Shown here one piece after another: positions 22,825 through 38,534 of a DNA stretch of 41,163 nucleotides. Source of the stretch: Gemmata sp. (GTDB taxonomy: Bacteria; Planctomycetota; Planctomycetia; Gemmatales; Gemmataceae); assembly GCA_022843445.1 (NCBI GenBank), contig JALHNS010000014.1:1-41163 (forward strand). The letters run 5' to 3'. Below the pieces are notes generated by a model. That model worked only from the letters and a program-made list of their open reading frames with translations, was not told the DNA's origin and made no database searches. A program made the position numbers and the translations under genes. Position 1 is the stretch's first letter, and the number at the start of each line of letters is the position of its first letter.

Positions 22825-26979
<4,155 letters not shown>

Positions 26980-28723: not shown

Positions 28724-28800
28724 TCGCGTTCTTGCCCGGCCCACAGAACGAGGGGCGTAAAAACGTGTCGGCGTGCGGAGTGTATGGGTGGGGGTGAATG

Positions 28801-29334
28801 ATGAACGAGGAGCCGGCGTCACGGCACGAGCAGTTCTTGAGGCACTACTCGGCCCACGAACCCGCGATCCGGGCGTTCGTGCGGCGTCTGGTCCCCGCGC
28901 GTACCGACGTGCCGGACGTCATGCAGGAAGTGGCCCTCGTCCTGTGGAAGAAGTTCGAGAACGTGCCCGACCCCGACGACTTTCGCCGCTGGGCGTTCGG
29001 GGTGGCAAAGTACGAAGCCTTTTCGTGGCTCCGCGATAAGCGGCGAGATCGCCTCGTGCTTGCGGAAGACGTTCTCGAACAACTCGCACAGGACGCCACG
29101 GCACTCGAACCGGTCCTCGACTCCCACCGGGTTGGGTTGGAGGCGTGTTTGGAAAAGCTCCCTGCCGACCAAAGGGCGCTCCTGCTTGCCGCCTACGAAC
29201 CGGGCGCGCGCATTCAGGACGTCGCCGAGCGCAGCCGCCGAACGGTCGGAGGCTTCTACCAGTGGCTGCACCGCGTTCGGCTGCAACTGCTCGACTGCGT
29301 GCGCCGGGGAATCGCTCTGGAAGGTGCGAAATGA
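28801..29334 (+). CDS. RNA polymerase sigma-70 family ECF sigma factor
   Basis: FVRRLVPARTDVPDVMQEVALVLWKKF..DFRRWAFGVAKYEAFSWLRDKRRDRLV..LEKLPADQRALLLAAYEPGARIQDVAERSRRTVGGFYQWLHRVRLQLLDCVRR. Alternative ATG at 28798. Confidence 0.9.
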   Translation: MNEEPASRHEQFLRHYSAHEPAIRAFVRRLVPARTDVPDVMQEVALVLWKKFENVPDPDDFRRWAFGVAKYEAFSWLRDKRRDRLVLAEDVLEQLAQDATALEPVLDSHRVGLEACLEKLPADQRALLLAAYEPGARIQDVAERSRRTVGGFYQWLHRVRLQLLDCVRRGIALEGAK

Positions 29335-34657: not shown

Positions 34658-36058
34658 ATGTTGAATCTGACCCGCCGCGAGGCACTGAAAGCGGCGTCTG
34701 CCGGTTTCGGTTACCTCGCCTTCTCCGGGCTGGCGACGCTCCACGCCGAGGTGAAGAAATCCCTGCTGGCCCCCCGTACTCCGCACTGGGCGGCGAAGGC
34801 GAAGCGGGTGATCTTCCTGTGCATGCGGGGCGGCCCGTCGCACATCGACACCTTCGACTACAAGCCGCAGTTGAAGAAGGACGACGGCAAGGCGTCGAAG
34901 TACGCCGGGTCGAAACTGTTCACCTCGCCGTGGGCGTTCCAACAACGCGGCAAGAGCGGGCTGTGGATCTCCGACCTGTACCCGGAGTTGTCGAAGCACG
35001 CGGACGACCTGTGCCTGCTGCGGGGGATGCACTGCGACCAGCCGAACCATGCCCAGGCGTTCGTGCAGATGCACACCGGCAACTTCCAATTCGTCCGCCC
35101 GTCGCTCGGGGCGTGGACCCTGTACGGCCTCGGCACCGAGTCCGACAGCCTGCCGGGGTTCATCTCGATCAACCCGCCCACGAGCGTCGGCGGGGCACAG
35201 AACTACGGCAGCGCGTTCCTCCCCGCCGCGTTTCAGGGCACGCGGTTCAACATCGCCGACAGCAGCGCCCGGAACCGCCCGGTGGACCGGATGCGGCGGG
35301 GCGAGACGAACCCGCTCGGCGTCAACCATGTCCGCAACGACCAGCTTTCGCCGAACCTCCAACGGCTCGAACTCGACCTGATTCAGCAGATGAACGGCGA
35401 GGCGATCTACCGCAACGGCCCGTCGCCGCTCGTGGACGGGGCCATCGAGAGCTTCGAGTTGGCGTTCCGCATGCAAGACGCCGTGCCGAAACTGATGGAC
35501 CTGTCGAAGGAGACGAAGGAGACGCTCGACCTGTACGGCATCGGCTCGGACCTCACGGACGGGTTCGGTCGGCAGTGCCTGCTGGCCCGGCGATTCGCCG
35601 AAGCCGGGGTGCGCTTCATCGAACTCGGCCACGGCACTTGGGACCAGCACAACAACCTGAACGACGGCATGACCAAGAACGCCGGCAACACGGACAAGCC
35701 CATCGCCGGCCTACTCGCCGACCTGAAGCGCCGCGACCTGCTCAAGGACACGCTGGTGATCTGGGGCGGCGAGTTCGGCCGCACGCCGCACTCGGACAAC
35801 GGCGACGGCCGCGACCACAACCACAAGGGCTACACGCTGTGGATGGCCGGCGGCGGCGTGAAGGGCGGCGTCTCGCACGGTTCGACCGACGAGTACGGCT
35901 ACGAGGCCGTCGCCGGGAAGGTCCACATCCACGACTGGCACGCCACCATACTGCACCTGCTCGGTCTCGACCACGAGAAACTGACGTTCCGCCACGCCGG
36001 CCGCGCGATGCGACTGACCGACGTGGGAGGCACCGTCGTCAAAGACATCCTCATGTAA
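34658..36058 (+). CDS. DUF1501 domain-containing protein
   Basis: TRREALKAASAGFGYLAFSGLATLHAE; FLCMRGGPSHIDTFDYKP; WGGEFGRTPHSDNGDGRDHNHKGYTLWMAGGGVKGG; HAGRAMRLTDVGGTVVKDILM. Confidence 0.92.
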   Translation: MLNLTRREALKAASAGFGYLAFSGLATLHAEVKKSLLAPRTPHWAAKAKRVIFLCMRGGPSHIDTFDYKPQLKKDDGKASKYAGSKLFTSPWAFQQRGKSGLWISDLYPELSKHADDLCLLRGMHCDQPNHAQAFVQMHTGNFQFVRPSLGAWTLYGLGTESDSLPGFISINPPTSVGGAQNYGSAFLPAAFQGTRFNIADSSARNRPVDRMRRGETNPLGVNHVRNDQLSPNLQRLELDLIQQMNGEAIYRNGPSPLVDGAIESFELAFRMQDAVPKLMDLSKETKETLDLYGIGSDLTDGFGRQCLLARRFAEAGVRFIELGHGTWDQHNNLNDGMTKNAGNTDKPIAGLLADLKRRDLLKDTLVIWGGEFGRTPHSDNGDGRDHNHKGYTLWMAGGGVKGGVSHGSTDEYGYEAVAGKVHIHDWHATILHLLGLDHEKLTFRHAGRAMRLTDVGGTVVKDILM

Positions 36059-36121: not shown

Positions 36122-37345
36122 ATGAGATCGCTGACCGTTGGACTGATCGCGCTCGCCCTCAGCGGGCTGTATCCGGCTACCGCTTCGGCACAGAAAGGGA
36201 AGTTCCGCGACGACGCCGAGCGGTTCGGGTGGACCGAAGACCTGCCCGCCGCGATGAAGGAGGCGAAGCGGACCGGCAAGCCCGTCATCGTGATCCTGCG
36301 GTGCATCCCCTGAGCGGACTGTCAGGACTTCTACGGGCAGGTTGTCCGATTAGAGAAGTTCAAGGATCTTGCCGACCGGTTCGTCCGCGTGCGTCTGAGC
36401 CGCGTGATCGACGTCGATATCCACCAGTTGGAGTTCGACTTCGACCTGACCATGATGACGTTCTTCCTCAGCCCCGAGGGCCAGGTCTACAGCCGGTACG
36501 GCGGTCGGGATTCCAAGGACGCGGAGAACCGGCTGTCGCTCGCCGGCTTCCGCCACACGATGGAGTCGGTGCTGGCCGAGCACGCCAAAAAAGCTCCCCG
36601 GTTCGCCGAGCGGACGGTCGAGAAGCCTCAGTACCCGCGCGACATGAACATCGTGAAGCGAGGGTGCGTCCACTGTCACAACGTGAAGGAGCAACAGGAG
36701 AGTACCCTCGCCCGACTCGGTCGGTGGGACCGCGAGCAGGTGTGGCGGTTCCCGCCCCCGGACAACGTCGGCCTGATCCCCGACGTGGATCGCGGCAACG
36801 TGGTCAAGACGGTGACGCCGGAATCACCGGCCGCCAAGGCCGGTCTGAAATCCGGGGACCAACTCCGCTCCCTCAACCGGGTGCCGATCCACTCGTTCGG
36901 CGACGCCCTTTTTGCCCTCGACCGCGCTCCAGCGAAAGGCGGCATTGACGTGGCGTGGGAGCGGGACGGCAAGCCGATGACCGCCAAACTCGAACTGAGC
37001 GAGGGCTGGAAAAAGACGGACATCACTTGGCGGGCGTCGCAGCGGCATCGCATTCCGTCCCTCAAACTGTCCGGCGACGACCTGACGGCGGACGAGAAGA
37101 AGGCCCTCGGGTTGAAGCCGGGCCAACTCGCGTTCCGCCAGCAGAACGAGGTGAGTGCGCACGCGGCCAAGGCGGGATTCAAGGCCGGCGATGTCGTCGT
37201 GGGCGTCGACGACCTCGAACCCGAGTTGACGGTGTCGAAGTTCCTGAGTCTCGTTCGTCGCCAGTACCTCGTCGGCGATCAGGTGACCGTCCACATCATC
37301 CGGGACGGCAAGCGGCTCAAGGTTCCGATGAAACTCATTCAGTAG
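36122..37345 (+). CDS. Thioredoxin-like/PDZ candidate selenoprotein with CXXCH heme motif; in-frame TGA at 36311-36313 read as Sec
   Basis: MRSLTVGLIALALSGLYPATASAQ..AMKEAKRTGKPVIVILRCIP[TGA]ADCQDFYGQVVRLEKFKDLADRFVRVRLSRVIDVDIHQLEFDFDLTMMTFFLSPEGQVYSRYGGRDS..GCVHCHNVKEQ..two PDZ-like segments. 408 codons, one frame, one internal TGA. Confidence 0.75.
36314..36349 (+). promoter_or_regulatory. Possible SECIS-like stem-loop immediately 3' of the TGA
   Basis: CGGACUGUCAG ... GCAGGUUGUCCG can pair as CGGAC/GUCCG, then U.U, G.U, U.G, C-G, A.A, G-C; loop begins with G. Imperfect, judged by eye. Confidence 0.3.
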
Positions 37346-37368: not shown

Positions 37369-37476
37369 GTGTCGATGCACAAGTTCGATCTGCGGGCGCT
37401 CAGGCTTCCGCACCTCGCCTTTCTGGCGTCCGCCCTGCTGGCGCAACCGTTCGCGGTCGCGCAGCCGGTGAAGCGA
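37369..37476 (+). pseudogene. Signal-peptide fragment of a secreted protein truncated at the integrase junction
   Basis: GTG/ATG start MSMHKFDLRALRLPHLAFLASALLAQPFAVAQPVKR, then reads into out-of-frame integrase DNA. Confidence 0.5.
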
Positions 37477-37477
37477 A

Positions 37478-38363
37478 CAGTTGGTCGAGTTGTACCTCGT
37501 GCCGATCCTCGGCGGCCTCAAACTGCATAAACTCCGACCGATGCACGTGGAGCAGTGTTACGCGACCATGCGAGACGGCACCGCCGACCGCAAGCCTGCT
37601 GGGGCCGACACCCGCAAATCCGCCGGCGGTGTGCTGTCGACCGCGCTCAAGCGGGCCGTCGAGTTGCGGCTCATCCCGTACAACCCGGCCGCCGACGTCA
37701 AGAAGCACCGTCCGAAGGCGCGCGAAATGGCGTTCATGACGCAACCGCAGGCGAAGCGGTTTCCTGGCCGCGCGGTCCAACCAGAACTACGCGCTGTTCG
37801 CGGCCGCCCTCGGCACCGGTGCGCGACAGGGTGAGTTGCTCGGTCTCACGTGGGCGGACATCGACTTCGACCGCGGGGTGATGGAGGTCCGGCGGGCACT
37901 CGCGCAGGTGAATGGGAGGTTCACGCTCAAGGAGCCGAAGACGAAGGCCAGCCGCGCCGTGACGCTACCGGCGTTCGTCCGCGACGCGCTCCGCCTTCAC
38001 CGCGAGCAGACCCTCAAAGGCGCGCCGATCGCCGGGCCCGTGTTCTGCACTCGGACGAGGGGCTATCTCGATCGGAAGAACGTGTTGCGGGCGTTTCGGA
38101 CGATTGTAGCCCGCGCCAACACCGCGGAGCGGGAACGGGCCGAACGGACGCAGACGCAACCCGACATGATTCCCGAGTTGCTGCGGTTCCACGACCTGCG
38201 GCACACGCACGCGACGGGGCTGATCACGGCCGGCAACTCGATCAAGGCCGTGTCGCGTCGGCTCGGTCACTGCAACATTGCCATCACCCTGAGCGTCTAT
38301 GCCCACCTGCTGCCGGACGACGACGCGAAACTCGCGGGACAAGCCGACGCGCTATTCGGCTGA
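37478..38363 (+). pseudogene. Tyrosine recombinase/phage-type integrase, N-terminally truncated and frameshifted
   Basis: QLVELYLVPILGGLKLHKLRPMHVEQCYATM..MTQPQAKR | FLAARSNQNYALFAAALGTGARQGELLGLTWADIDFD..LLRFHDLRHTHATGLI..RRLGHCNIAITLSVYAHLLPDDD. Frameshift at ~37760 (extra T); R, HxLR, H and Y residues present. Confidence 0.88.
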
Positions 38364-38415
38364 GATTGGGAGTACATTGGGCGTACGGACGTATTTTCGG
38401 CCCCACGGGTGCGAA

Positions 38416-38452
38416 ATGAAAAACGCCGCAACCCACTATGGTTGCGGCGTTT
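38416..38452 (-). terminator. Rho-independent terminator of the tRNA gene
   Basis: AAACGCCGCAACC-CACTAT-GGTTGCGGCGTTT, perfect 13-bp stem; minus-strand reading continues into TTTTT. Confidence 0.8.
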
Positions 38453-38460
38453 CAGTTCAG

Positions 38461-38534
38461 TGCGCGTTACTGGACTTGAACCAGTGACCCCCACAATGTC
38501 AATGTGGTACTCTAGCCAACTGAGCTAAACGCGC
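38461..38534 (-). tRNA. tRNA-Val (anticodon GAC)
   Basis: Minus strand GCGCGTT TAGCTCAGTTGGCTAGAGTA CCACA TTGACAT TGTGG GGGTC ACTGGTTCAAGTCCAGT AACGCGC A: 7-bp acceptor stem, anticodon GAC, TTCAAGT T loop; CCA not encoded. Confidence 0.93.

Follow-up and report, generated by a model that had tools for sequence, protein, structure and literature searches.

The stretch of DNA analyzed here, hereafter the window, comprises 41,163 nucleotides and is carried by contig 14 of a draft Gemmata sp. genome (7.39 Mb, 636 contigs, 94.6% complete). At 36122-37345 on the forward strand it holds a gene of 407 residues plus stop, which starts with an ATG at 36122, ends with a TAG at 37343-37345 and contains a single internal stop, the TGA at 36311-36313 (codon 64) within ...VIVILRCIP*ADCQDF.... 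An earlier note had described this frame as open save for one TGA, and the frame translation bears this out; the stub ahead of the TGA measures 63 aa and not the 60 aa given there. The read-through product begins with a putative export signal (residues 1-24, MRSLTVGLIALALSGLYPATASAQ, 36122-36193), which was read from the sequence and is modeled by AlphaFold2 with low confidence, as expected of a signal peptide. It is followed on the same strand by a Thioredoxin_7 domain (residues 37-94, 36230-36403; Pfam PF13899, 46 bits), by the putative c-type haem attachment motif CVHCH (residues 182-186, 36665-36679), and by two PDZ domains. The first of these spans residues 223-292 (36788-36997; Pfam PF13180), the second about residues 346-404 (37157-37333), where a second PDZ_2 stretch and an HtrA-type PDZ match (346-404) were found. 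An assignment to the HtrA/Deg proteases was rejected, because the PDZ parts alone match, with at most 70 bits against a cut-off of 416, and the trypsin-like protease domain of these enzymes was not found in the product.

Directly upstream lies a DUF1501 gene (34658-36058, forward strand; Pfam PF07394), a neighbour that is kept beside the gene in four close relatives (L035, L048, L074 and L085), and Pfam also identified a PSCyt1/PSCyt2/PSD1 protein further upstream. Gene types such as PSCyt, PSD1 and DUF1501 presumably point to a planctomycete. The next gene downstream (37371-38419, forward strand) has an ORF start that reads like a signal peptide (MHKFDLRALRLPHLAFLASALLAQPFAVAQ), and a homologous start occurs downstream in L074. 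This ORF breaks into frame-shifted fragments reading like a tyrosine recombinase, beside a tRNA-Val gene on the reverse strand (38460-38534), and the region looks like an old element insertion adjoining the selenoprotein gene; the recombinase was not confirmed when two fragments from 37371-38419 were searched against Pfam. A protein of 1384 aa that carries a protein kinase domain (22825-26979, reverse strand) and an ECF-type sigma factor (28798-29334, forward strand) are ordinary neighbours in the window, with no link shown to the gene.

The read-through product matched the NCBIfam model NF041199, 'Trx7/PDZ domain-containing (seleno)protein', with 433.2 bits over residues 36-405 and profile positions 2-390 of 390, compared to a curated cut-off of 300 bits; the family name given in the earlier note does exist. 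Membership is further indicated by PF13899 and PF13180, which both score above their gathering thresholds, and by the active site C61-x-x-U64, which fits the pattern C-x-x-U/C-x-x-C. Taken by itself, the segment 3' of the TGA reached 379 bits and is what an ORF caller would show as a truncated gene; ordinary gene calling would split the gene. Weak local likeness of residues 28-80 was also observed to the VPGUxxT family thioredoxin-like (seleno)proteins NF041383 and NF041382, but the product scores of 22 and 14 bits are far under the respective cut-offs of 275 and 350, and these families have no PDZ match. The predicted prokaryotic selenoproteins compiled in a 2026 review include 'Trx7/PDZ domain-containing protein, NF041199, CxxU, 1' (PMC13188914), and a 2022 review has the entry 'PDZ domain-containing protein, pfam13899, CxxU' (PMC9312934). 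The Global Ocean Sampling study is named in the 2026 review as the source for the family (PMC13188914); the word PDZ does not occur in the text of that paper. Since the family is already found in reviews, the gene in the window is a further member of the catalogued, previously known family NF041199 and no new kind; it shares the full-length match, the CxxU motif and the one Sec, and nothing sets it apart.

The codon column of the TGA was analyzed by searching 98 genomes from the same bacterial family, and 90 members including the window's gene were aligned. At codon 64 these members have TGA (62), TGC (27) or TGT (1) and no other codon. The same column is C or U in 143/143 members when further ones from the same bacterial family and phylum are added to the 90. 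Third-position G+C amounts to 0.857 upstream and 0.851 downstream of the TGA, hence both halves appear to be coding. Because the NF041199 match crosses the TGA and the column holds TGA or a Cys codon in 90/90 members, the TGA in 36122-37345 is, on this sequence evidence, not there by chance. If an otherwise normal Cys gene had recently acquired a nonsense mutation, or had been misread in sequencing, the TGA would be a true stop; one base indeed separates TGA from TGC or TGT, and the draft assembly comprises 636 contigs. Such an origin leaves 61 other loci in independent assemblies with TGA in the same column unexplained, as well as the coding signal that carries on past the codon and the hairpin described below, which is conserved in TGA members only. 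Both nonsense mutation and sequencing error were rejected, because conservation refutes them in practice, and their probability is vanishingly small.

Decoding of the TGA as selenocysteine should depend on a SECIS element, and a matching hairpin is found just past the codon on the forward strand. Its apical stem pairs 36334-36339 with 36343-36348 around the loop GGU at 36340-36342, which sits 26 nt 3' of the UGA. Within this bacterial family, Sec members have a common GACGGGCA-GGU-UGUCCGUC or a paired variant of it 3' of their TGA. In a set of 60 distinct sequences, pairing amounts to 95-100% for the six inner pairs and to 83-90% for the two outer ones, and the pair at TGA offsets 25/35 occurs as G-C (30), A-U (18), G-U (6) or C-G (6) without exception. 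When 32 held-out relatives were analyzed, 97.3% of the cells were paired and the covariation exceeded that of all 500 shuffles, while slid registers gave much lower values. Codon usage follows the same pattern: the valine in the loop is encoded by GTT in 56/62 cases, although only 13.5% of the other Val codons of these genes are GTT, and the arginine by CGT in 50/62 cases versus 12% elsewhere. These synonymous choices track the hairpin, so the RNA dictates, at least in part, the peptide GQVVR that is conserved in Sec members. The Cys members have a different peptide at this position.

A SECIS covariance model was built from these 32 sequences, leaving out the window's gene along with L085 and the three relatives closest to the gene. 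It matched 36323-36358 with 28.7 bits as the top site in the window (runner-up 12.9 bits), and the same site ranked first across the whole 7.4 Mb genome. The next-best matches in the genome that were inspected (L164-L168 and L171) have no open-frame TGA at the right spacing and were taken as chance. Over 28 Cys loci the model found no comparable site, the best reaching 14.1 bits. Two consensus pairs of the family, the outer ones, are missing from the window's hairpin, and an alternative lower stem is possible for this gene (36325-36332 paired with 36354-36361, thus spanning 36325-36361), which is seen in RNA folds of at least 54 nt. Folding just 48 nt from the window gave a result no better than shuffles (z 0.25), because the lower stem is cut off at this length; the point was settled by longer folds together with the comparative tests.

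Genes for Sec insertion have been reported for planctomycetes including G. obscuriglobus (PMC4807772). The genome analyzed here contains one tRNA-Sec with the anticodon TCA (UCA in the tRNA), selB (372 bits over the frame, cut-off 242), selA (553 bits) and selD (377 bits), the latter two also above their cut-offs, and each of the four is located on its own contig. Among the matches listed for 399 genomes of the phylum, selA was found in 74 of the 78 genomes with the TGA form versus 13 of the 41 with Cys forms only. The Fisher p value of this link among the matches listed (2.6e-13) is indicative only, as kinship is ignored. A few genomes have the TGA form with selA undetected, for example G032 and G039, which are fragmented drafts. 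A non-exhaustive search of the own genome for a VPGUxxT family protein or Fdh-alpha gave no hit over cut-off, and a second selenoprotein was not identified.

In principle, the UGA might also be read as tryptophan or cysteine by a near-cognate tRNA, or two separate proteins might be made via downstream re-initiation, for which the GTG at 36389 offers an in-frame alternative start. A product initiated at 36389 would lack the active site together with the greater part of the Trx domain, and neither process explains the Cys/Sec column, the SECIS-like hairpin and the link to selA, which makes them very improbable; re-initiation was rejected. Instead, 36122-37345 most probably represents an NF041199 selenoprotein gene, in which UGA 64 is decoded as selenocysteine (probability about 0.96). 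The earlier note had favoured Sec over random decay and had proposed an alignment of the TGA column, a SECIS search and a search for the Sec genes as checks. All three speak in favour of Sec: the column is Cys or Sec in each of the 90 members, the hairpin is present, conserved, covarying and absent from Cys members, and selA, selB, selD and tRNA-Sec occur above cut-off in the same genome.

Regarding the active site, the Sec residue is flanked by two cysteines. Cys61 (TGC, 36302-36304), three residues ahead of Sec, is C or U in 143/143 members, whereas Cys67 (TGT, 36320-36322), three residues past Sec, is conserved in 127/143 and lost in 16. The earlier note had pointed to the Cys past Sec (U-x-x-C); of the two cysteines, C61 is the more conserved. 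Judged from the alignment, the site is C61-x-x-U64-x-x-C67 with C67 as the dispensable cysteine. One clade of Sec forms (L101, L102, L096-L100 and L089) has E, D or H at position 67 and keeps the Cys at position 61. In the AlphaFold2 model (mean pLDDT 82) the strand 55-59, the site and the helix 65-74 correspond to the thioredoxin active-site position. The incomplete conservation of C67, compared to a position 61 that is always C or U, suggests that U64 is likely the attacking residue and C61 its more dependable partner. The nearest solved relatives by sequence are the thioredoxin-like proteins TXNDC12/ERp18 and AGR2, with weak E-values of 0.015-0.1, and at this weak level the CxxC of TXNDC12 aligns with U64-x-x-C67 of the product. 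Unlike the product, they are eukaryotic ER proteins that consist of one domain and lack Sec, CxxCH and PDZ. When the complete model was used for a fold search, PDZ domains dominated the result, which is of little use for judging the Trx domain. The CxxCH motif is present in 143/143 members; its conservation equals that of the Sec column and suggests that binding of haem or metal belongs to the function; Pfam found no cytochrome c domain in the product, despite this motif and the signal-like N-terminus.

The comparative data strongly support a mechanism in which SelB with Sec-tRNA(UCA) recognizes the hairpin just past the UGA and Sec is inserted at residue 64 in place of a stop. The product would be exported via its predicted N-terminal signal. 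In the structural model U64 opens the active-site helix, at the spot of the attacking cysteine of thioredoxins, where it could attack a substrate of the disulfide or peroxide type outside the cytoplasm, with C61 or C67 as the resolving residue. Electrons might be handed on by the single CxxCH haem, while the two PDZ domains might tether the redox unit to a partner. Such a redox-relay role, i.e. an exported thiol-selenol unit with c-type haem and PDZ tether, is proposed tentatively, at somewhat less than even odds. The Sec site could also serve as a peroxidase or as a metal/selenium-binding site that performs no thiol-disulfide exchange, the CxxCH haem being structural only. The loss of C67 in 16/143 members and the UxxU forms described below, which are unusual for a plain thioredoxin, would fit such a function; it is considered less likely, because the partner C61 (or U61) is always kept and because TXNDC12/ERp18 and AGR2, although matching weakly, belong to the thiol-disulfide or PDI-like proteins.

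The same genome also holds a Cys paralogue of the NF041199 family (C173:11904-13091, L051). It resembles the window's gene in its domains, the CxxCH motif and the R-C-x-P-C-x-x-C at the site, but has a Cys codon in place of the TGA, no SECIS hairpin, another peptide past the site and a position in a separate clade of the tree. Hence, this paralogue may do similar chemistry without selenium.

Furthermore, TGA was found at both positions 61 and 64, nine bases apart (R-U-x-x-U), in 41/143 members, a number that is no frequency because matches with two stops were chosen on purpose. The 143 sampled members comprise the active-site states C-x-x-C (31), C-x-x-U (71) and U-x-x-U (41), while U-x-x-C did not occur. 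The U-x-x-U members come from other genomes (L072, L075, L110, L111, L112, L116, L119, L122-L145 in part, and L147-L156) and are spread over many families of the phylum; the tree requires 13 changes of the UxxU label, and well-supported branches enforce at least 10 of these. A stem of at least six pairs past the second TGA is present in 35/41 UxxU members, and searches with the SECIS model gave sites in the majority of the UxxU loci covered. The states CC, CU and UU could represent a natural series with a stepwise replacement of sulfur by selenium and a possible diselenide in an exported protein, maybe with haem, an interpretation for which the chances appear evenly balanced. The gene in the window has the middle (CxxU) state of this series. 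In the 2026 review NF041199 is given with one Sec and CxxU, and UxxU is absent there (PMC13188914); this concerns a single review, and someone may have seen the UxxU form already.

Collectively, the draft genome is equipped for making selenoproteins, and the analysis adds a SECIS element with clear covariation to a family so far known by prediction alone. The clade without C67 offers a test, set by nature, for identifying the Cys that partners Sec. Moreover, the Sec and Cys paralogues in one genome, together with the CC, CU and UU forms in one phylum, make up a set for asking what benefit selenium has in a thioredoxin-type site.
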